Part shown: one piece after another, positions 23,680 to 62,180 of the stretch
Layout: each line of letters opens with the position of its first letter
How positions within the stretch are numbered: the stretch's first letter is position 1
NCBI GenBank assembly: GCA_963402885.1
Contig: OY727096.1
Coordinates: forward strand, 15,171,820-15,235,819
Source of the DNA: Antedon bifida
Taxonomy: Eukaryota; Echinodermata; Crinoidea; Comatulida; Antedonidae
Direction of reading: 5' to 3'
DNA length: 64,000 bases
The notes under the pieces: model-generated
What the model was told of the DNA's origin: nothing
Database searches by the model: none
Seen by the model: the letters and a program-made list of their open reading frames with translations, nothing else
Program-made: the position numbers and the translations under genes

Positions 23680-25227
23680 TCATTCTCTTTTCTCAAATCC
23701 CAATTGGCAACCAGATGCTGGCATTATCCTTCCATTCTCATTGCAGGTCAGAGGAATAGGTGTTGTAGACACAGGCACAGGTCGATAATTTCTCAAAACA
23801 TACACTAATGCGAATTTCACCGTCATTAGTGCATATCTCATACCCACACAGTTCCGAGGCCCGTGACCAAATGGGATCCACGCCATCGGATGCCGCTTCT
23901 CCTTGTTTTCTTTGGTGAATCTATCTGGATCAAATTTCTCTGGATCCGGCCATATTTTTGGATCGTGATGTATTGCCCAGATTGGTATAGTAACATTGGT
24001 TCCCTTCTCAATAGTTAATCCATCATAAGTCCATGTCTCGTTACAAACTCTGTCTGTAAACACAGCTGGTGGATACATCCGTAAGGTTTCTTGTATGACT
24101 TGGTCAAGATAACATAGTTTAAATACAGTGTCATATGTTAGGTCACCTTCTTTCTTAATATTCTTTTCGATTTCTTCATATAATTTCTTTTCTACATCGG
24201 TATTAATCGCTAAAGCATATGAGGTAAGTGACAGGAGTGTGCTCGTGGCGTCATATCCGGCTAAGATGAAAGTTACAGCTTGCGCCATTAGTTCATCAGT
24301 TGTAAGACCTCGCTTGGTCGACTTATCTGGTTCTGCATCATCAAATTGAGTTATAAGACCATCGTCCTCTTCTTCTACGTCCATTTTATGAGAGTCAACC
24401 ATTAAGCTGATAAAATCTTTGCGATCAACTGAAGGATTGTCGTTAATACTTTTGACGATCTTTTCAGTTACATCTACAAAGAACTTCCTAGGTTCCATTG
24501 GCATAACATCAATCCCAATAGCCTCAAATATTTTTACTGATTTAGGGAACATCATGCCCAGGGCGAAAAGCCACATTCGTCCTCCGTTAATTAATGTATT
24601 CATATGTTTTATAAATGGACTATTTGGATCGTTCTGCGAATCTAACTTGAGTCCAAAATGTGTAATAGCTACTATGTCCATCATCGTACATCCGTATAAT
24701 TCCCTTACATTAGTCTCACTCTTTGAAGATGCTATTGCTTCAATCCTGTCAGACAATACCCGACATGCAGTATTTATAAGCGGTACCATACGTTTCATCA
24801 TCCCAGAACTAAAGGCAGGCGTAACCGTGCTCCGAATACGCTTCCATTCTTTCCCAGTCACAGCAAGTATACCTTTATCCAATGGCTTCATGTTGATATC
24901 TTCGAACACCCGGTGATCATGGAATGATGAGAAATCCTTGATTAGAATCTGTCGTAATTTATCAAGATCACCAACTATTAGCTGCGGCTTTCTCCCTTCA
25001 TACATACCCACGATTGGACCATACTCTGACATATATCTACTCTGTCCTTGATCCTTCCCATACTTAAAAAACATATCATAGCCGTTACCTATAAAAGGTA
25101 GAGGTTTAGGTCCAGGTATACCTCGAGTCTTCCAATAAGAGTAGTTCCACACGCCGTAAATGTACAGTAAGACCACGACTAACACAACAAGTATCAAAGT
25201 GGTTACATTAAGTCCAAGAAAGAACAT
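23680..25227 (-). CDS. CYP3A-like cytochrome P450, single exon (left copy)
   Basis: A 515-residue haem-thiolate monooxygenase expected in the ER membrane, oxidising lipophilic substrates with electrons from P450 reductase. N-terminal membrane anchor at about residues 7-27 (LNVTTLILVVLVVVLLYIYG), then the proline-rich hinge IPGPKPLPFIGN. I-helix AGYDATS has the oxygen-activating Thr. K-helix ETLR gives the ExxR motif, then FDPDRF and the haem loop FGHGPRNCVG with its Cys ligand near residue 460. Length and motifs fit CYP3/CYP4-like clan members, best CYP3A/thromboxane-synthase-like. There are no introns, unlike vertebrate CYP3A genes. Divergent from the copy at 27291-28838, to which it is nearly identical in the middle. 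Substrate unknown. Confidence 0.93.
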   Translation of the reverse strand: MFFLGLNVTTLILVVLVVVLLYIYGVWNYSYWKTRGIPGPKPLPFIGNGYDMFFKYGKDQGQSRYMSEYGPIVGMYEGRKPQLIVGDLDKLRQILIKDFSSFHDHRVFEDINMKPLDKGILAVTGKEWKRIRSTVTPAFSSGMMKRMVPLINTACRVLSDRIEAIASSKSETNVRELYGCTMMDIVAITHFGLKLDSQNDPNSPFIKHMNTLINGGRMWLFALGMMFPKSVKIFEAIGIDVMPMEPRKFFVDVTEKIVKSINDNPSVDRKDFISLMVDSHKMDVEEEDDGLITQFDDAEPDKSTKRGLTTDELMAQAVTFILAGYDATSTLLSLTSYALAINTDVEKKLYEEIEKNIKKEGDLTYDTVFKLCYLDQVIQETLRMYPPAVFTDRVCNETWTYDGLTIEKGTNVTIPIWAIHHDPKIWPDPEKFDPDRFTKENKEKRHPMAWIPFGHGPRNCVGMRYALMTVKFALVYVLRNYRPVPVSTTPIPLTCNENGRIMPASGCQLGFEKRE

Positions 25228-26114
25228 GTTGGTTTTTAATACTTTACGAGTATAGGCCTAAGTGGATGAGCTAGTGCGCCTGTAAAAAATGTCCAATCTT
25301 TAGCAGCAGGTCGACACTGCGAAAATCAATAACTACATGTATTGTATTACACAAAGGCATTATAATTATGTTTACAAACGGCACCAACCGTCTTTTCAAG
25401 TGATGCCCATAATCAAAGTTTAAACTTAACCTATAGATTCAGTGCTACATTATACATACATTATATTAATAAGAATAGACCAATACACAAACAATGCTAA
25501 ACAAATAGCTTTTACATACCGTACACGAAGTTTGAGCATTTAAAAGTTTAATTATTATTCTAGTAGATATATCATTACGAAAAAGTACCTTTTACAAAAA
25601 AGTATACATTGTTCACAAGTTAGTAATGCAATGGCGATACGGAAGATAAACAATTAAACAAGTCTGTTATTACACCCCCAGCCCCTCCCAACCTCACCCT
25701 TCTCTTTCAATTTATTTAATACAGTACAGCAATGTATGATTCAAACATTAAATTAGAAACAAATTCCATGTGTAGGTCTACATGAGTTATTGACATGGGT
25801 TTCAAATACGAAATTGTCAATGCTCGAGTCGGCGTTTAAGTACATAATATTATAAAACCATCCAAAAATGTTCACTCTCCATCAAATATTGCATTTAAAA
25901 ATATATTTAACTCAGAACTCATAGGCCTACATGTAAAAGCAAATTCGATTGCTTCATCTATGAAATGTTATATAGGCTAGACAATAAACACCATGTCTGA
26001 ATAACATTGTACTCTGTAAAAGCTAGCTGTTTGCTTATCATAGTTAGGATAATCACAAAGTCTATATATATTTTTGTTCATATCCACGAACGGGGGTAAG
26101 TCACATGTTTTTGA

Positions 26115-27182: not shown

Positions 27183-27290
27183 TGCTGCAGGTTGAATGCA
27201 TTTATATTATTGGGTATAATTTAGCACAACATAAACGCGTCTCTAAATGCTATTACTATAGCTTAAATCAGTAACATATTAAAGACCAAA

Positions 27291-28838
27291 ATGTTCTTTC
27301 TTGGACTTAATGTAACCACTTTGATACTTGTTCTGTTAGTCGTGGTCTTACTGTACATTTACGGCGTGTGGAACTACTCTTATTGGAAGACTCGAGGTAT
27401 ACCTGGACCTAAACCTCTACCTTTTATAGGTAATGGTTATGATACGTTTGTCAAGTATGGAATGCATCAAGGACAAGGTAGATATATGTCAGAGTATGGT
27501 CCAATCGTGGGTATGTATGAAGGGAGAAAGCCGCAGCTAATAGTTGGTGATCTTGATAAATTACGACAGATTCTAATCAAGGATTTCTCATCCTTCCATA
27601 ATCACCGGGTGTTTGAAGATGTCAACATGAAGCCATTGGATAAAGGTTTAACTACTGTAACTGGGAAAGAATGGAAGCGTATTCGGAGCACGGTTACGCC
27701 TGCCTTTAGTTCTGGGATGATGAAACGTATGGTACCGCTTATAAATACTGCATGTCGAGTATTGTCTGACAGGATTGAAGCAATAGCGTCTTCAAAGAGT
27801 GAGACTAATGTAAGGGAATTGTACGGATGTACGATGATGGACATAGTAGCTATTACACATTTTGGACTCAAGTTAGATTCGCAGAACGATCCAAATAGTC
27901 CCTTTATAAAACATATGAATACATTCCTTAACGGAGGACGAGTGTGGCTTTTCGCCATTATTATGATGTTCCCAAAATCAGCAAAATTCTTTGAAGCTAT
28001 TGGGTTTAACATTCTGCCAATGGAACCCGTTAAGTTCTTTGTAGATGTAACTGAACAGATTATCCAAAGTATTAAGGACAATCCTTCAGTTGATCGCAAA
28101 GATTTTATCAGCTTAATGGTTGACTCTCATAAAATGGACGTAGAAGAAGAGGACGATGGTCTTATAACTCAATTTGATGATGCAGAACCAGATAAGTCGA
28201 CCAAGCGAGGTCTTACAACTGATGAACTAATGGCGCAAGCTGTAACTTTCATCTTAGCCGGATATGACGCCACGAGCACACTCCTGTCACTTACCTCATA
28301 TGCTTTAGCGATTAATACCGATGTAGAAAAGAAATTATATGAAGAAATCGAAAAGAATATTGAGAAAGAAGGTGACCTAACATATGACACTGTATTTAAA
28401 CTATGTTATCTTGACCAAGTCATACAAGAAACCTTACGGATGTATCCACCAGCTGTGTTTACAGACAGAGTTTGTAACGAGACATGGACTTATGATGGAT
28501 TAACTATTGAAAAGGGAACCAATGTTACTATACCAATCTGGGCAATACATCACGATACAAAAATATGGCCGGATCCAGAGAAATTTGACCCAGATAGATT
28601 CACCAAAGAAAACAAGGAGAAGCGGCATCCGATGGCGTGGATCCCATTTGGTCACGGGCCTCGGAACTGTGTGGGTATGAGATATGTACTAATGACGGTG
28701 AAATTCTCTTTAGTGCATATTTTGAGAAATTATCGCCCCGTGCCTGTGTCTACAACACCTATTCCTCTGACCTCCAAGGAACTTGGAAGGATAATGCCCA
28801 TATCTGGTTTCCAATTGGGATTTGAGAAAAGAGAATAA
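27291..28838 (+). CDS. CYP3A-like cytochrome P450, single exon (right copy)
   Basis: 515 residues, same length as the left copy, with all P450 signatures: N-terminal anchor, IPGPKPLPFIGN, AGYDATS, ETLR, FDPDRF and FGHGPRNCVG. Differences from the left copy cluster near residues 50-60 (DTFVKYGMHQ versus DMFFKYGKDQ), 110-122, 212-270 and the C-terminus. Long stretches between are identical at protein level with only a few silent base changes. That pattern fits recent duplication with gene conversion or unequal selection. Both copies look intact. Its 3' end faces CCP110 tail-to-tail across about 545 bp. Confidence 0.93.
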   Translation: MFFLGLNVTTLILVLLVVVLLYIYGVWNYSYWKTRGIPGPKPLPFIGNGYDTFVKYGMHQGQGRYMSEYGPIVGMYEGRKPQLIVGDLDKLRQILIKDFSSFHNHRVFEDVNMKPLDKGLTTVTGKEWKRIRSTVTPAFSSGMMKRMVPLINTACRVLSDRIEAIASSKSETNVRELYGCTMMDIVAITHFGLKLDSQNDPNSPFIKHMNTFLNGGRVWLFAIIMMFPKSAKFFEAIGFNILPMEPVKFFVDVTEQIIQSIKDNPSVDRKDFISLMVDSHKMDVEEEDDGLITQFDDAEPDKSTKRGLTTDELMAQAVTFILAGYDATSTLLSLTSYALAINTDVEKKLYEEIEKNIEKEGDLTYDTVFKLCYLDQVIQETLRMYPPAVFTDRVCNETWTYDGLTIEKGTNVTIPIWAIHHDTKIWPDPEKFDPDRFTKENKEKRHPMAWIPFGHGPRNCVGMRYVLMTVKFSLVHILRNYRPVPVSTTPIPLTSKELGRIMPISGFQLGFEKRE

Positions 28839-41340: not shown

Positions 41341-41822
41341 TAAGCTTGTGAGGTCTCCATACTTTTTCTGTGAGGTCTCCATGCTTTTTCTGTGAGGTCT
41401 CCATACTTTTTCTGTGAGGTCTCCTTACTTTTTCTGTGAGGTCTCCATACGTTTTCTGTGAGGTCTCCATACTTTTTTTGTGAGATCACCATACCTTTTC
41501 TGTGAGGTCTCCATACTTTTTCTGTGAGGTCTCCAGTACTTTTTCTGTGAGGTCTCCATACTTTTTCTGTAAAGTCTCCATACTTTCTATGTGACGTCAC
41601 CATACTTTTTCTGTGAAGGTCTCCATACTTTTTCTGTGAGGTCTCCATACTTTTTCTGTAAAGTCACCATAGATTTTCTGTGAGGTCTCCATACTTTTTC
41701 TGTGAGGTCTCCATACTTTTTCTTTGAGGTCTCAATACTTTTTCTGTGAGGTCTCCATACTTTTTCTGTGAGGTCTCCATACTTTTTCTTTGAGGTCTCA
41801 ATACTTTTTCTGTGAGCTTGAC
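41341..41822 (+). repeat. 22-bp minisatellite (TGAGGTCTCCATACTTTTTC) in FLCN intron
   Basis: About 21 imperfect copies of a 22-bp unit start immediately after the donor of FLCN exon 41193-41339. The same unit recurs at 62885-63025, upstream of the last TRIM copy. Period 22 leaves long open minus frames with a 22-residue cycle; these are artefacts of the repeat. Confidence 0.9.
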
Positions 41823-41959: not shown

Positions 41960-42087
41960 ACACAAAGTCATTACATAAATGTTGTATTTAAAATGATGCA
42001 ATAACAATATAACTATCTATCTATGTGTATATTGTACCAATATTACTTCCTAGGAACTTTATTTAATCAATCAATTAAACATAATAA
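41960..42087 (-). repeat. TRIM-unit 3' flank fragment, left of the Helitron
   Basis: CATTACATAAATGTTGTATT, then TTGTACCAATATTACTTC and AACTTTAT, ending TTAAACATAATAA. The same blocks follow the intact TRIM copy at about 59035-59103. The homologous continuation resumes at 46352. Confidence 0.8.
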
Positions 42088-42394
42088 TCTATATATTAAT
42101 GCTACTAAATTTTTCGCGTATTTTACGTATCTCCTCCAAAACCACTGAACGGTACATGCTCACATTTGGCACACTGATGTTTATTGAGGGGCCGCACACT
42201 GATGTTTATTGAAGGGCTGCACACGAATGGCTATGTCAATTTCCTGAATTTTAAGGATAAACACTAAAAAAAGGCAAAAAATATCAGTAATTTGACAATG
42301 ACAATGATAATGAATTCAACCGTATCGACTGATCTCGTCGTTGAGTTTTAATTAATTACACCTATCCTCGGAACAGAATGTACTGTATTTTGTA

Positions 42395-42475
42395 AATCAC
42401 GGTTTGGCTCAGTGAGTAAAACGCTGTGGCCATTGAAACTAATGCTTAGTAGGTTTGAGTTCGAATCCACAATAT
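42395..42475 (+). repeat. tRNA-like segment inside the Helitron
   Basis: TTGGCTCAGTGAGTAAAACG (A-box-like) and GAGTTCGAATCC (B box) about 45 bases later. It is probably a SINE or tRNA relic, since acceptor ends do not pair clearly. Confidence 0.45.
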
Positions 42476-43460
42476 GTGTAAATAATAAGTATCAACGCTT
42501 AAAGCAAAAAATCTAAACCTCAATGTAAAGATACCAAACCTCACCCAAAAAATAGCAATATATAAAAAACCATTGAAATAAAAAAAATAATGTAAATGAA
42601 AAAAAAAAACAAACACACACATAAATAAAATTATTCCAAAGTCGTGTTTCCACAAGATATCAGATAAGTTTGTCTCCGAGCGCATCATCTAATTTCAAGT
42701 AGTGTGTGCACTTTTTCTATTGATTTTGAAGTCCGTTTTATTATTCCAATACTGTTCACATCTTAATTCTATAACTGACTGATTAACAGACTTCAACGTG
42801 CACCTATCATGTACGTTGTCACTTTCTAATGAGCACCCTAGATTAATATTCACACAGCATAAAGTCCCATATCCAGTATTGTGCTTTTATAATACCTAAT
42901 CATCCCATGCGAATTATTATTAAGGCAGAAAATTAAGTAATTAAATTTGTAGTATAGCAATTTCTATACCACAAATTTAATTACAAAAGTAGCAAATAGG
43001 TAACAAATCTCCCACACAAAAAAAAAATATCAAAACCATTCAAATAAAAAAAATGTAATGAAATTAAACACACACAAACAAAGCAATTCCAAATGGTTGA
43101 TACACATGTTGAACATGAAAACAAATTAACAATTCGTGTTTCCGTTTTTCATTCGATTTATGTTCACTTTTTTATTTTATCTGCCGTCTTCAATCCGACG
43201 TTTGGCAATCATGACCCTCCAATAGTCCCTGTCCCCTGCCATCCGTTTAACGTCAGCATAGGTTCCCGGTATCAAAAACAATTAATACACCACGAAAAAC
43301 ACCCATTTTATACTTTCGTTAGTGTTTGCGCTCATCATCTAGGCCTAATTCACACGGCACAATTTTTCTTTAACGTATTTTATTTTCGTAAAGTCTGAAC
43401 AGTCAAAAGTAAAGTCTAAAGTTCCGTATCCAGTATATATTGCTTTCATTTTTTAGCTTA

Positions 43461-46162
43461 CAGTCGGAAAGCCGCGTTGGTAACGCATCACTGATTTCAT
43501 TCATTGTGAGGGCGCGCTTCGTGGAAAATGTTGGAATTTTTGCTATTTTAGTACACTTAGAAAATGGTATAATTTTGATATTAAATGAAATCAATAAACG
43601 TATTTCAATAGTTGAACTACAAGCGTAAATAATGATAAAAACTGTGATCTAAATTCCACAGATTTTTTGTTTCAAGAAATATCATTATTTTATGTATAAA
43701 CTTATTTACTTTAATTTTTTTTTAAATGATGGTAAAAAATCATTAAATTTCATATTTTCTAGATAAGGTTTCAAAGCGAATTTAAAATCCTTTCAAGATA
43801 AACTATTAAGCTATCTATTAAAATAAAAATCTAATTTTAAGCTTTCTTGGGATGCAACTCCCACTAATCAAACCAAACCTACTACATTTCTGTTCTGTTT
43901 CGATCGAAAAATCGCCATTTTGAAACTTTGTTTACGTTTTACGAAGCTGGTACGAATCGTCCCGGACCGAATCGTGTCTGTGTTCAATACGGTTTTCATG
44001 CAGGCGTATTACGTCATAGGCCTAAGATTTCAATTTGCTCCCCGATTATTGTTCTATTTGGTTTCTGAGCTAGGAAAGGCTACCTACTATAATTACTTAC
44101 TTGATTTCTAGCCTAGCTAGGCCTAAAAATAGTATTTTCTAGGCCTAGCTAGGCTGAGTAATTCTGATATATACTAATATTAGATAGGTAGGCCTACCCT
44201 AGTGAGTGTTAATAATAGTAGCTGGGTATTCTATAGTCTAGGCTGGTGGTAGGTCTATCCCAGCTCTGCTCATATACCAAGCAAGAAGAAGCCTGAAGGA
44301 GAAACTAGGCCCAGAACAAATAAAAAACTGTTAAAAAAACAATAAATGGAAAAACAAAAAAAAATAACCCATTTTCAATTTATATATGGGGAATGTTTAT
44401 AAAATCGGGCATGTTTGTTTCAGAGACTCAAACGTGTATTTTTATATGGTCATGTTTTTAAAAAAGATAATTATGGGCCCAGCTGAAACCAAGATATAAA
44501 AATATAAGTCCATCATTTACTTGAGTATTGTTACAGTGATTGGTTGGTACTCAGTATTTCAGTATCTGGCAGTAAATGTCACACTTGTATATAAATATTA
44601 CTTTATTAGATACAACTTGCATTTCACACAAGCAACCAATTTTTTTTTACGTATACAGAATGTGAAAAAGCAGTTTTTAATACAAATATCTTTCAAACAA
44701 TACTGATATAAATAGTAAATACTACTACTGTATATAAAAACTTGCTTTTATTTAAATAGCACCTTGTTCATCAAACATAACAAACTAGCTAGGCCTATAT
44801 CATATTAACTTACGTGAGTCTTACGGTTGTACTGATTTTATTATTGTTTTATATGTTTATATTGTATGTATCTGTGTGACTCTGGTTAATAAAGTAAATC
44901 AATCAATTGCAACTTAATTTATATCTTATCATTGACTGATCTGAAACGCTTCTAAAACTTGAATGCGTATGAATGTATATGTTATATTATTATTAGCGAA
45001 TAAAATGAAAAACTATCAGCTGCAGCAATGATATTGAAATCGAGAAAACCATTACAGCTTCCACCGTCCAACCTCATATTGAAGAACGAGACAGAAAATC
45101 GTCGAGTCTTGATACCAACAAAAAACCTAAAATGAAAATGAATAGCTGAAATGTAATGAATGAAACTATTTAAATAATTGTCACTATGATATGAACAAAA
45201 CATTGCATCGTTATACAGTATAATTATTCAACAACCTGAAAACATTTTCATATATTGGCCTACCATGAAAAAGCAGCAAATACAAAATTTCCTTATGTCT
45301 GTTTATTGTAATAATTATTAATATTATAAATAAATTGTACCCCTCAGTTGTCAATAATTTTACTATAAATATATATTTAACTATATAGAATAGGTAGGCC
45401 TATACCTGTATCAGGCTGCGATTTGCTTAATTATCTTTTTAAAACTTCCCAATGCATCTTCAATATAGAGTAGGATTGTAACGATACTTTAATAATACTA
45501 AATTGTAACTAAAGTATTTAAATTATTAACAGAACATGTTACTAGGCCTAGGCCGATATAATACGACAACGATCCACCAGGTCGTGCATATACTCACCTA
45601 CAACAACCACAATCAACACACCATGCACCACACACGACGGAACTAGTGCCGCGAGACGTAACAATATATGACATGAGGACCTTTTTTAAAATGTTCGCTA
45701 TAGGAAGCTTAAATAGGGTTTCAAGCCAATTTTAACGTAAAACAGACTATTGATACTTACTCTATCCATATACGTCGGTTTTTTGGTAATTCACTGTATG
45801 GGATGCAAATCCCACTAATGGAAAATTTGTAAACAAACACCTGTTAGAAAACTTCAGTTTTGACGGACTCACACGAACTTTGGAAAGAAATTGTCGCTGA
45901 CAACAAATCCAACAAATTATTCAGAAAATTAGGTGACCTGCGACATCTTAAACATATAAGGAACTGACCTTACCATATATGGTTAATTTTTCGCCAACTA
46001 ATGTTTATTAAACAGCTATTAAATGACGTATACTTTATGCTAATGTTTTCGCGCGAAACGTTGATGCTTCTGTGCCGAGAGAGGGCTTCTAAAATTTATG
46101 ACGTCATGCGAAGTCGAAAATTCAGCGATAACGGTCATATTTCCCAACGCGGCTCTCCGACT
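43461..46162. mobile_element. Possible nested element within the Helitron
   Basis: A 20-23 bp inverted pair at its ends (CAGTCGGAAAGCCGCGTTGG and the inverse with one change). Inside, GGGATGCAACTCCCACTAAT at about 43849 and GGGATGCAAATCCCACTAAT at about 45799 form a direct pair. No target duplication was established and no coding recognised. Confidence 0.35.
44840..44905 (+). repeat. LINE-like 3' tail with (AATC)n
   Basis: TGTGACTCTGGTTAATAAAG followed by AATCAATCAATTG. Same tail style as 15010-15095. Confidence 0.35.
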
Positions 46163-46351
46163 GTTACATATATTTCAAAGTGAAGTGATGGTGTATAACA
46201 AAATCAATGGCCGTAAATACAGTAGTTCCGAATTATATTCTTGATACAATTTGTTTTTATTTTATCAGAGTGCGCTTTTATTATACTTGCCCATGCAAAG
46301 TATAACCACATATTAAGGCAGAAAATGACTGTGAGCACGGGTTACTGCTAG

Positions 46352-46714
46352 TAATCATAGTAATTAATATAGTACAATGATGACTTTTTTATGTATAATT
46401 CAATAAAATTATAAACCTAATTTCGTTGTAAATGCCATTTTCTGGATGTACATAATAATCACTGTATTACCAAAACAATGCAATAACACAAAAACTTTTG
46501 TTTTAATAATTAAACATTTAAATAATTTAATCTAAACTAATCACACAGTAGGCTAAATATTGTAAGTTTTGATAATTCAAAGTGAAGTTATATTTTATCA
46601 CTGAATTCAGTGATTACAGTTTAATAATATTAATAAAAATAAATATTGCATTTTTTATCAATTACTGTACATGATTAACAATTATATTCATGTGAAATTA
46701 TTTATTTATCTACT
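46352..46714 (-). other. 3' flank of TRIM copy A
   Basis: Blocks GTACAATGATGACTTTTTTA and AATTCAATAAAATTATAAAC match the flank of copy C (about 59120-59200). AATAAA-like signals on the minus strand could serve the 3' UTR of copy A. Confidence 0.5.
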
Positions 46715-48810
46715 TTAGTAGTTGAATATTTTAATTTTGCTGTCATTGAAATTAGCTATAGCAATTCTACGTGGGTTTGATGAAATGATACATAACTGGT
46801 CAGGATTATTAATCCCATCTTTTTTCTGATCAATTCTTTTGATAAAATGTCCATCACTACTGAATAGTTGTAGTTTGTGTTTACTTGATACAATGATGTT
46901 GTCATCCTCATCAACTACAACTCCACATGGTGAAATCACCATACCATCTTCATCAACTATATTGATAAGTGTTTCAAATGATTTGTCTTCATTATCATAT
47001 ATTACAACTTGTTCATTTTCATTATCTGCTACAAGCACTCTCCCAGTTTTTGCAAGTGTTACATCATAGTAGCCATTTTCTACTTCTTCTTGTGATCCTA
47101 TCTTCATCAGTTCCTTGCCACTATTGATGTCAAACATGAACACACATTCAGTGTTCCATTCTGCTACATAAATAACATTTGTTTCCTCATCTATGTAAAT
47201 ACCTTGTGGATCATTCAATATATCCTTACCAATGGATCTGATCACATGACCATTCATACATTACCACTGAATGCTATGTTGTTATTCTTCATTTTGTGCA
47301 TTCTGTTAACTCTGGCACCTTCTGGTAGTGTAATCTTGCCTATGTGTTTTCCTGATTGTTTGTACTTGTGAATTTCATTTGTGTAAAATGAAACTAGCAA
47401 GCAATCATCATTACACTTTACTACTCCTCTAGGGTTTCCATCAACTTTAAAATCATTTATCAGTCCTTTCTTCTCTACTTTGATAGTAAATGGTGATTGT
47501 TTGATTGGTTTCCCATTGAAATACACATTTAATGTAAAGTTTCCTGGATTCTTGAATATTCCTCTTATAACATACTCATTATCTTCTTTAACAAGATCAA
47601 TGTTGGTTTCTCCTTTTAAATGTGTAAATGTTGCTGTAATAAGGTGATTAGGACCATCTTGATGTTTTTGTCTTATTTTTGCAACAAATGTTTCACCTTG
47701 GATGACATATTCAGGTACCTTTACATTAATTTGAGTTACAATTCCAATTTTGTGTTTGTTTAAACAATCAAGTTGATGTTTGTTTCCAGAAAATGTAATT
47801 TGCCCATTGTCATTTTGTTTAATTTCTTCAGAATTATCCATTTGATCCTTCAGTATGTTCAATGCAATCTCACTTGACATCATAGCAGTTGCTGGCTCAC
47901 TCTGTATTAACTGATTAAGGAAACTTACATTTGTATTTAGTTCAGCAGTGATTGTTCTTAATTTCTCCATTTCTACATCATTTATTTTCTTTTCATCTTC
48001 ATAAATTGTGTCAACTTTTTTTTTCATTTTATCTCCCTTTTTCTGGATTATTTGTATCGTTTCTTGAACTTGATTATCAATATCCTTGGTACTTGTTTCT
48101 TTACTTTCTTTTAGTTTTTCAGCATTCTCTGTGAGTGCCTTGAGTCTATTTTCTAGTTTAGCTTTGTAGTGATGGGCTGCGGATTTCAGTTGTTGTGCAT
48201 ATCCATTAAAAGATGTGAATGCTTTTACAATTTCTATTGGTTTGTGATCTATTGCAGGATGTGTTATTATGGCACATTGCATGCATATTGGTTCTTTACA
48301 TTTTGTACAGTATAGCTCTAGTGGTTTGTTGTGAGAAGAACACAATGGTGGATTTAATGCTGCAAGTTGTTGTGGCGTCATTGATTGCACTTCCTCTGCA
48401 GCAAGTATCGTATGACTTGCTAACATTGGAAATTTGTTATGCTGCTTACTACATGTGAAACACAAGTAATGTCTGCATTCTTTACAGTAATGTATTGCCT
48501 GTTCTGTTGTTCCACAAACACATTTTATGTTATCTTTCTTCTGAAATTTGTCAATGTTTTCTAACATGTTGTTTAGAAATGTATTTGGTGAAAGCTTCTT
48601 AAGCCCGCCATCTGGAATAGGATATGATTTGCAACACATTGGACATGTTAGTTTGCCATTGTTTGTTTTTACCCAGTTCTCTAAACATGACAAGCAAAAG
48701 CTATGTAGACATTGAAGACTTTTAGGATCTTGAAACCTTTCCTGGCAAATGGCACATACTAAGTCCTCATCAACATCTTGAAGAAACTGATTTAATTTGC
48801 TTGTAGCCAT
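46715..48810 (-). pseudogene. TRIM2/3-like RING/B-box/filamin/NHL gene, copy A, frameshifted
   Basis: Start MATSKLNQFL at 48810. RING finger at about residues 18-60 (CAICQERF through CPMCCKSY), B-box 1 (CVCGTTEQAIHYC), B-box 2 (CSSHNKPLELYC), coiled coil about 205-330, then a filamin-type Ig repeat. The first frame stops at 47254 after NNIAFSGNV. The rest of the NHL propeller (180 codons, 46715-47257) is in another frame. Against copy C, 19 bases are missing near 47258-47276, which removes about six residues and shifts the frame. The stop TGA and the next ATG overlap as ATGA. Without re-initiation this copy yields a RING/B-box/filamin protein lacking most NHL repeats. A 5' UTR acceptor lies just upstream (about 48816). 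Confidence 0.88.
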
Positions 48811-48921
48811 TTTATCTGTAAAATAGTAAATCGGGTAATATTATGTGGTCATGTGGTGTAATGGACTGTCCGACAATACTTAACATTCAGTTGTTTTGTT
48901 GAGATGAGACGGTATGAATTA

Positions 48922-58720: not shown

Positions 58721-59249
58721 ATACATGAAACATTCTTAAGAAATATAACATGTATTGCAGTTCCACTGTTTTAGTATTGTTTTATTGGATAACAATAATT
58801 TTTGTAAGGATACAATTATGAAGATGCATCTGAATAGAATTATTGTAAGAAACACTACAGTTACAAATAAATCTATGTTTAAAATATCTTATGTTTTGAA
58901 CTTGAAATACACAAACATTTGAAATTAAAATTAAGTTTTACATTTGAAAAGAAAGACAGTTATTATATAAAGTTGTTATCTGATGCAATAACATAACAAT
59001 GTAACTATATATCTATTTTCTCATCCTTACCTTTCATATCACTATTATATTGTACCAATATTACTTCATGGGAACTTTATTCAATCAATTAAACATAATA
59101 ATAACCATAGTTTTCTTATTGTACAATGATGACTTTTTTAGGCATACGTCTGTCATTTCCTTTGAAGTTACAATAATTCAATAAAATTATAAACCTAATT
59201 TCATTGTAAATAATTTTCTGAATGTACTTAATAATCACTTTATGTCTAA

Positions 59250-59387
59250 AGCTCTGTCTACACCATCAAACTTTATTTGACAACAAAATGTGATGTGCCC
59301 TGATTGGACATGATTATGTCATATCACTACCATATTTGGGCACATCACACTTTTTTTCAAAATAGTTTGATAGTGTAGACAGAGGTT
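59250..59387. mobile_element. MITE family 3
   Basis: TAAAGCTCTGTCTACACCAT to TTTGATAGTGTAGACAGAGG. Same family as 6363-6516 and 10832-10990. It lies in the 3' flank of TRIM copy C. Confidence 0.75.
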
Positions 59388-59613: not shown

Positions 59614-61725
59614 TTAGTAGTTGAATATTTTAATGTTGCTATCACCATAATTAGCTACAGCAATTCTATGTGGATGATATGAAATGATACATAACTGGTC
59701 AGGATTATCAATTCCATCTTCTTCTTGATCAATTCTTTTGATAAAATGTCCATCACTGCTGAATAGTTGTAGTTTTTTGTGACTTGATACAATGATGTTA
59801 TCATCCTCATCAACTACAACTCCTTGTGGCTCCATCACATAACCATCTTCATTACCTCCATCGATGAGTGCTTTAAATGACTTGTCTTCATTATCATACA
59901 TTACAATTTGATTACATTCATAATCTGCTACAAGCACTTTCCCAGTTTTTGTAAGTGTTACATCAGAGTATCCATATTCTACTTCTTCTTTTGATCCTAT
60001 CTTCATCAGTTCCTTACCACTATTGATGTCAAACATAAACACACATTCAGTTTTCCATTCTGTGACATAAATAACATTTGTTGCCTCATCTATGTGAATA
60101 CCACGTGGATCATTCAATACATCCTCCCCAATGGATTTGATCAGATGACCATTCATATCACATATTTGAATGCAGTTTTCATCACTGAATGCTGTGTTGT
60201 TGTTATTCTTCATTCTGCACATTCTGTAAACTCCTACACCTTCTGGTAGTGTAATCTTGCTTATACATTCTCCTGATTGTTTGTACTTGTGAATTTCATT
60301 TGTATAAAATGAAACTAGCAAGCAATCGTCATATTTCACTACTCCTGGAGGCATCATGTCAACATTAAAATCATTTACCAGTCCTTTCTTCTCTATTTTG
60401 ATGTTAATTGGTGATTGTTTGATTGGTTTCCCATTGAAATACACATTTAATGTACAGATTCCTGGATTCTTACATATTCCTCTTATAACATACTCATTAC
60501 CTTCTTTAACAAGATCAATGTTGGTTTCTCCTGTTGCATGTGTCCATGTTGCTGTAAGTTGATTAGGACCAACTTGATCGGTTTTTCTTATTTTGGCAAC
60601 AATTTTTTCACCTTGGATGACATGTTTAGGAACCTTTACATTAATTTGAGTTACAATTCCAATGTCGTGTTGTTTTAACAAATCAATTTGATGTTTGTTT
60701 CCAAAGAAGTTAATTTGTCCATTGTCATTTTGTTTAATTTCTTCAGAATTATCCATTTGATCCTTCAGTGTGTTCAATGCAATCTCACTTGACATCATAG
60801 CAGTTGCTGGTTCACTCTTTAGTGACTGATTAAGGAAACCTACATTTGTATTTAGTTCAGCAGTGATTGCTCTTAATTTCTCCATTTCTACATCATTTTT
60901 TTTCTTTTCATTTTCATAAATTGTGTCAACTTTTTTTTTCATTTCATCTCCCTTTTTCTGGATTATTTGTTTCACTTTTTTAACTTGATTATTGATATCT
61001 TTAATACTTGTTTCTTTACTTTCTTTTAGTTTTTTAGCATTTGCTGTGAGTGCCTTGAGTCTATTTTCAAGTTTAGCTTTGTAGTGATGGGCTGCGGATT
61101 TCAGTTGTTGTGCATATCCATTAAAAGATGTGAATGCTTTTACAATTTCTATTGGTTTGTGATCTATTGCCGGATGTGTTATTATGGCACATTGCATGCA
61201 TATTGGTTCTTTACATTTTGTACAGTATAGCTCTAGTGTTTTGTTGTGAGAAGAACACAATGGTGGATTTAATGCTGCAAGTTGTTGTGGCGTCATTGAT
61301 TGCACTTCCTCTGCAGCAAGTAGTATATGACTTGCAGTTATTGGCAACATTTTGTGATACTTAGTACATGGGGAACACAAGTAATGTCTGCATTCTTTAC
61401 AGTAATGTATTGCCTGTTTTGTTGTTCCACAAACACATTTTATGTTATCTTTCTTCTGAAATTTGTCAATGTTTTCTAACATGTTGTTTAGAAAAGTATT
61501 TGGTGGAAGCTTCTTAAGCCCGCCATCTGGAATAGGATATGATTTGCAACAAATTGGACATGTTAGCTTGCCATTGTTTGTTTTTACCCAGTTCTTTAAA
61601 CATGACAAGCAAAAGCTATGTAGACATTGAAGACTTTTAGGATCTTGAAGCCTTTCCTGGCAAATGGAGCATACTAAGTCCTCATCTACATCTTGAAGAA
61701 ACTGATTTAATTTGCTTGTTGCCAT
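59614..61725 (-). CDS. TRIM2/3-like RING/B-box/filamin/NHL protein, copy C, intact
   Basis: 703 aa from the conserved MATSKLNQFL start at 61725; an upstream in-frame Met at 61812 lies before a likely 5' UTR acceptor (about 61738-61746) and was not chosen. RING C3HC4 (CSICQERLQDP to CPICCKSY, residues ~18-60), B-box 1 (~96-135), B-box 2 (CSSHNKTLELYCTKC, ~155-195), a Lys/Glu coiled coil (~205-330), filamin Ig repeat (~375-465; EYVIRGICKNPG), then a C-terminal NHL propeller (DFNVDMMPPGVVKYDDCL to the end; repeats of GVVVDEDDNIIVSS type). This order is that of TRIM2/TRIM3/TRIM71: probable E3 ubiquitin ligase, with the propeller as substrate- or RNA-binding surface. Single coding exon. Target unknown. 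Confidence 0.92.
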   Translation of the reverse strand: MATSKLNQFLQDVDEDLVCSICQERLQDPKSLQCLHSFCLSCLKNWVKTNNGKLTCPICCKSYPIPDGGLKKLPPNTFLNNMLENIDKFQKKDNIKCVCGTTKQAIHYCKECRHYLCSPCTKYHKMLPITASHILLAAEEVQSMTPQQLAALNPPLCSSHNKTLELYCTKCKEPICMQCAIITHPAIDHKPIEIVKAFTSFNGYAQQLKSAAHHYKAKLENRLKALTANAKKLKESKETSIKDINNQVKKVKQIIQKKGDEMKKKVDTIYENEKKKNDVEMEKLRAITAELNTNVGFLNQSLKSEPATAMMSSEIALNTLKDQMDNSEEIKQNDNGQINFFGNKHQIDLLKQHDIGIVTQINVKVPKHVIQGEKIVAKIRKTDQVGPNQLTATWTHATGETNIDLVKEGNEYVIRGICKNPGICTLNVYFNGKPIKQSPINIKIEKKGLVNDFNVDMMPPGVVKYDDCLLVSFYTNEIHKYKQSGECISKITLPEGVGVYRMCRMKNNNNTAFSDENCIQICDMNGHLIKSIGEDVLNDPRGIHIDEATNVIYVTEWKTECVFMFDINSGKELMKIGSKEEVEYGYSDVTLTKTGKVLVADYECNQIVMYDNEDKSFKALIDGGNEDGYVMEPQGVVVDEDDNIIVSSHKKLQLFSSDGHFIKRIDQEEDGIDNPDQLCIISYHPHRIAVANYGDSNIKIFNY

Positions 61726-62180
61726 ATTAATCAAATGTACTCTGTAACATAGTAAAACTAGTGTTATTATGTGGACGTTTGGTGTAATGGACTGTATGAC
61801 AATATTTAACATTAAGTTGTTTTGTTGAGATGAAACTGTAAGAATTACAGTAAATCTAGATCATTTAGTTTGTTTTTAGGGAGCACGACCAAAGTAAAGT
61901 ATGTCATGTTTATTCACTGCCCATATGTAGATATTCGGATATGTTCCCACTCTCCCTACCTAGTTTTGATGGTTTAGGTCCAGGTGACGACTAGCGACAA
62001 ATAGATTCACCAGACCTAGGCAGGAGGTCGTCGGTCATTGCAAATAAAAATCTCTCTATATATATGGTGGATGGTTGGTCATAAACTGTTCTTGTTAATG
62101 CAAACAAATTCAAACAAATGCCTTTACTTTTACAGTACTATAGAAACAAAATAGAAATGAAAAATGATATTAATTATTAC

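Follow-up and report, generated by a model that had tools for sequence, protein, structure and literature searches.

The 4,264-bp insertion at positions 42088–46351 of the window, by which we mean the whole 64,000-nucleotide stretch of DNA that was analysed, is almost certainly a non-autonomous canonical Helitron that inserted once downstream of one copy of a TRIM-type gene (TRIM copy A) and was later split by an inverted-repeat transposon. The matching site beside a second TRIM copy (copy C) is empty. The locus is a clean textbook case, in that an old Helitron insertion, its empty site and the young transposon that later split it can all be read in one place. There is little new to be learned from the Helitron itself, as Helitrons are common and the find is real but ordinary. 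The nested element, on the other hand, leads to a transposon family that is young and includes long copies that are intact, in which transposition could be tested. The features of the locus are as follows.

42088–46351, plus strand: whole insertion, a non-autonomous Helitron copy plus the nested transposon; 4,264 bp, approximately 1,560 bp without the nested part
42088–42120, plus strand: Helitron 5' terminus, TCTATATATTAATGCTACTAAATTTTTCGCGTA; found at 97 places (up to 2 mismatches) versus none for the reversed control
42395–42488, plus strand: tRNA-like segment; 40 scored places (the window one included) of 166 candidates
42529–42933, plus strand: 3' half duplicated in tandem, first copy (the second lies at 42998–43436 plus 46271–46326)
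42937–42984, plus strand: near-perfect palindrome, 48 bp (24-nt arms, 92%), at the place of an internal terminator-like stretch in four other copies
43458–43460, no strand assigned: left TTA target duplication of the nested transposon
43461–46163, no strand assigned: nested transposon, 2,703 bp, with inverted ends CAGTCGGAAAGCCGCGTTGG / CCAACGCGGCTCTCCGACTG
46164–46166, no strand assigned: right TTA target duplication of the nested transposon
46322–46351, plus strand: Helitron 3' terminus, ...GCACGGGTTACTGCTAG; hairpin damaged here (best 3 of 6 pairs)
59040–59250, plus strand: matching site next to TRIM copy C, without the insertion; junction 59101/59102

The insertion and its empty site

The left flank of the insertion ends with the letters CATAATAA at 42087, the element starts with TCTATATATTAATGC at 42088 and ends with GGTTACTGCTAG at 46351 (the last four letters being CTAG), and the right flank then begins with TAATCATAG. 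These flank and end sequences show that the coordinates given in the preliminary description of this DNA, 42088–46351, were exact. In a script alignment of the joined flanks (41991–42087 plus 46352–46480) with 58986–59215, the junction reads CATAATAATAATCATAG against CATAATAATAACCATAG, and the empty form of the site at the TRIM copy A locus would read CATAATAATAA. The segment 42088–46351 is thus inserted precisely between A and T.

The genome that was searched comprises 315.6 Mb in 27 contigs, with the window on contig 9. A search with the copy-C site (59040–59250) yielded 11 matches, including the site itself and the two halves of copy A (query 7–63 and 134–204). Five matches, located on contigs 7 and 1 and 77–84% identical, cross the insertion point (query base 62/63) well, their spans being query 30–102, 17–99, 18–91, 37–101 and 30–102; three further matches pass it by just 8–9 bases. 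The empty site that had been proposed at copy C is therefore supported by the joined flanks, which align through the junction, and also by five other places that span it.

The genes neighbouring the insertion are of TRIM type and lie on the minus strand, which places the insertion downstream of TRIM copy A. RING and B-box domains were identified by Pfam in frames 47254–48840 and 59614–61860, and NHL repeats in frames 46715–47260 and 59614–61860; a filamin match under the Pfam cut-off was obtained in frames 47254–48840 and 59614–61860. To the left of the insertion, a 22-base unit is repeated in tandem in approximately 21 copies (window 41347–41816). The window also contains two oppositely oriented cytochrome P450 frames, one of 525 codons (23680–25257) and one of 523 codons (27267–28838).

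Termini, target and hairpin of the Helitron family

Both termini of the element recur across the genome. The 33-base 5' terminus was found at 97 places (up to 2 mismatches) and the 22-base 3' terminus at 176 places (106 forward and 70 reverse), versus 0 for the reversed control in each case, and this recurrence is not chance. The family ends are TCTATATATTAATG... at the 5' side and ...GTTACTGCTAG at the 3' side. Scoring covered 40 of 352 candidates; of the 39 places other than the window copy, 33 aligned from the very first base of the element, and relatives with the same first bases sit in unrelated flanks across the genome. The best-scored relatives are 75–95% identical, and the distinct copies with two ends range from 1,312 to 4,639 bp.

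Copies in which a 3' end was not found were excluded from the flank counts. Also dropped were L045, the first 5' bases of which do not match; L057 and L062, which duplicate the sites of the window copy and L043; and the internal terminator-like sites in L030, L031, L044 and L053 (position 278), where related internal sequence, rather than a T, comes next. The cut between A and T that had been described at this locus proved to be a property of the family: A is the last base in all 21 distinct 5' flanks, and T is the first base in 16 of the 17 distinct 3' flanks (the exception, L053, starts with C). Among the 24 5' ends used, 22 start with TC, and the other two (L037 and L041) start with TA.

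Eleven distinct two-ended copies were available for analysis of the junctions. No bases are shared at the junction in six of them, two bases in two, three bases in two (one of which is the window copy) and up to five in one. In agreement with the earlier claim that no target was duplicated, there is no repeat of fixed length among the 11 copies, as is the case for canonical Helitrons. Since the target is a TAA run, the window locus by itself cannot exclude a 3-bp TAA duplication, but the junctions in the rest of the family speak against such a duplication at the window copy.

A short hairpin with a 3-base loop is located 11 bases before the Helitron 3' end and is visible only when relatives are compared. 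Among 26 terminators, six of six pairs are formed in 5, five in 10, four in 2 and two or three in 9. At least five pairs are thus present in 15 of the 26 terminators versus approximately 4.5% of shuffles, so that the hairpin can be recognized at the family level, although the 26 terminators are not independent because they include four internal sites (three of them within the 15) and several that share host flanks. The window copy, with only three of six pairs, is among the nine weakest, in which the hairpin is decayed or dispensable. Folding of the last 102 bases as DNA revealed nothing unusual (z −0.31). A longer CCCATGC...GCACGGG pairing was also considered and was dropped because, as read by eye, its left arm is missing from several copies.

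Two sets of Helitron copies share host flanks, namely L034, L038 and L039 on contig 8 and L058, L059 and L060 on contig 7 (the 5' end of L060 was not read). In both sets, the surrounding DNA was probably duplicated after the insertion.

Internal organization of the Helitron

No long frame is present in the whole insertion, and no frame of more than 101 aa overlaps 42088–46351, as anticipated by the preliminary description, which had called the element non-autonomous and lacking Rep and helicase. The same description had noted a foreign-looking, tRNA-like piece. This segment does exist and starts approximately 310 bases into the window copy, but it recurs commonly, though not universally, in the family (the copy in L002 is without it) and is thus no peculiarity of the window copy; several of its places are found a few hundred bases away from a listed 5' terminus. 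It carries what we take to be A-box-like and B-box-like motifs. ARAGORN detected no tRNA in the window, and no Rfam tRNA match to the segment was obtained at E values up to 5, the six weak Rfam matches all being under their gathering scores. On these results, the identification of 42395–42488 as a tRNA gene was rejected.

The 3' half of the Helitron is duplicated in tandem. The two copies correspond in three colinear blocks (42529–42613/42998–43082, 42860–42879/43417–43436 and 42880–42933/46271–46326; 74%, 90% and 70% identical), and internal direct repeats of at least 40 bases are also present in five of the six other Helitron copies tested. Where the window copy has the 48-bp palindrome, four other copies keep an internal terminator-like stretch ending with CTAG or CTAT. 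Passages of the Helraiser paper (PMC4778049) document bypass of the 3' terminator as Helitron behaviour, and, by analogy, such bypass is the likely origin of the duplicated 3' half and of the internal terminator.

The nested transposon

The preliminary description had treated the whole insertion as a 4,264-bp Helitron that possibly contained a nested element. The length of the insertion stands, but the Helitron itself accounts for only approximately 1,560 bp; the rest is the nested transposon, which makes up nearly two-thirds of the insertion (2,703 of 4,264 bp). Its right boundary is also evident from the relatives of the Helitron. Among 40 other matches to 46152–46351 (40 of 358 candidates scored), 27 begin at 46164–46165, precisely at the end of the nested element, and none reaches leftward past 46161.

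The ends of the nested element are highly conserved. At the left end, where the best 40 of 127 candidates were scored, the identity is 99–100% in all 39 other places, and at the right end, where the best 40 of 121 were scored, it is 98–100% in all 39; these identities lean high because they were taken from the best-scored places. With at most one mismatch allowed, a 20-base end of the element was found 116 times on one strand and 117 times on the other. In five other copies that were read over approximately 1.8 kb, the identity is at least 99% throughout in two, whereas L067, L069 and L071 are 95–96% identical in one part and lack approximately 60 bases. The comparison of these ends (98–100%) with the best-scored relatives of the Helitron (75–95%) shows that the Helitron is older and that the nested insertion is more recent.

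The target duplications of the nested family are 4 bp long in 8 of 11 copies and 3 bp long in 3, the window copy included. The interpretation of TTA as a Harbinger-type target or a TA target was rejected, because the ten additional copies gave duplications that vary between 3 and 4 bp.

No long frame is present in the nested element, and the 9,219-bp elements described here are perhaps its autonomous source. At two places (C8:6763859–6773077 and C9:14737850–14747068), ends of the nested type lie 9,219 bp apart, and a 3-kb piece of the latter consists of one open frame. A 1,000-residue part of this long frame matched three places with 100% identity, each of which contains a 1,801-codon frame without stops; among the ends listed, two of these places are within the 9,219-bp elements, and the third is at C12:12907148. 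Two relatives of the 1,801-codon protein, at C8:18051714 and C10:7523430, are 50–51% identical. The 1,000 residues gave no meaningful Pfam match (one at E 0.25) and no relative of solved structure at E values up to 1. A Helitron-family 3' end was also observed at C8:6774080–6774285, approximately 1 kb past one 9,219-bp element, which may therefore also sit in a Helitron.

The transposase encoded by the autonomous partners of AcademX elements carries an XPG-like nuclease. In the 1,801-codon frame, motifs that are presumably those of an XPG-like nuclease were seen by eye only. As for the target, AcademX makes duplications of 3 or 4 bp, according to passages of PMC10045372, a length range shared by the nested element, and on the basis of duplication length we lean towards an AcademX-like candidate assignment. 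The 20-base end counts, the 98–100% identity of the ends and the intact 1,801-codon frame at three places raise the tentative, and on balance doubtful, possibility that the nested element represents a currently active, undescribed family of DNA transposons, either of AcademX type or of a new superfamily.

Search for the enzyme partner

The Rep family (PF14214) was found at 39 places in the genome, and the 20 best of these were fetched. In passages of PMC4067079, RGSPH is given as the motif of Helentron-type and RGLPH as that of Helitron-type Rep proteins; by this rule, 19 of the 20 are of Helentron type and one (L009) is of Helitron type. The Helentron-type proteins include many encoded in very long single frames of up to 3,182 aa (L010–L028), several of which contain repeats such as RQNCKQKLAEKYRSNLKF before the Rep domain.

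The search for an autonomous RepHel partner, which had been suggested in advance, came back empty: none of 38 Rep places comes closer than 47 kb to any of the 93 5' termini used in the comparison. This comparison omits C13:8498954, which lies beside a Rep place that was used, and 4 of the 97 5' termini, located on contig C14, which has no Rep place. For the 3' terminus, the comparison was made by eye and covered 100 of the 176 places. The stretches upstream of three Rep loci matched the element over short lengths only, with a best E value of 0.007 (15 bases). RepHel was thus found neither in the window copy, where its absence is compatible with a non-autonomous element, nor in the partner search. 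The partner may have been lost, its ends may have diverged, or a Rep may have been missed, because the search reads exon by exon.

Proposed history and alternative explanations

We propose that a non-autonomous Helitron (TC...hairpin...CTAG, A/T target) entered downstream of TRIM copy A in one event, after the TRIM copies had been duplicated. From the family features and from passages of the Helraiser work (PMC4778049), we infer that it would have moved by rolling-circle transposition, presumably with RepHel supplied in trans. An inverted-repeat DNA transposon that makes 3–4 bp target duplications would then have jumped in at 43458–43460 and split the Helitron. The original proposal of a Helitron insertion agrees with the TC...CTAG ends, the A/T target, the many copies in unrelated flanks and the empty site. 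The findings named in advance as overturning it, namely a target duplication in other copies, termini that differ among them, or other flanks in which the stretch is contiguous, were all sought and not found.

As that proposal was based on a comparison of only two TRIM flanks, the same difference could have arisen from a deletion in copy C rather than an insertion in copy A. We give this practically no credence, because the stretch recurs with the same ends in unrelated flanks genome-wide and the empty junction is bridged in five other matches. The TAA on both sides of the window copy would be accounted for by a cut-and-paste transposon that makes a 3-bp TAA duplication, with no Helitron involved. 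However, the target here is itself a run of TAA, and the version without duplication is the one that copy C fits; moreover, 6 of the 11 distinct copies share no junction bases, and the TC... and ...CTAG ends are not inverted repeats of each other, which makes this explanation very improbable.

The abundance of Helentron-type Rep proteins in this genome (RGSPH in 19 of 20 loci fetched, of 39 places) would suit a derivative of a Helentron or Helitron2 that was moved by them. The element, however, has TC and CTAG ends and an A/T target, whereas Helentrons prefer a T-T target according to passages of PMC4067079, and we consider such an origin unlikely, if somewhat less so than the cut-and-paste explanation. 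The inverted repeats of Helentrons and Helitron2 elements, subterminal or terminal and asymmetrical, can be short, for example the 13-bp ones mentioned in PMC4067079, which is below the range of our repeat search, with its minimum of 16 bases.

Comparison with known systems

The canonical Helitron reading places the element within a well-known kind. According to passages of PMC4778049, Helraiser has TC and CTAG ends, inserts at an AT target and carries a palindrome at a distance of 11 nt from its end. As far as these passages extend, the present family resembles Helibat/Helraiser (canonical, Helitron1 type) in its 5' TC, its 3' CTAG, the hairpin 11 nt upstream of the end, the A/T target and the absence of target duplication. 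It differs from Helibat/Helraiser in being a sequence family of its own, in its tRNA-like internal piece, in the duplicated 3' half and internal terminator relic of some members, and, in the window copy, in the damaged hairpin.
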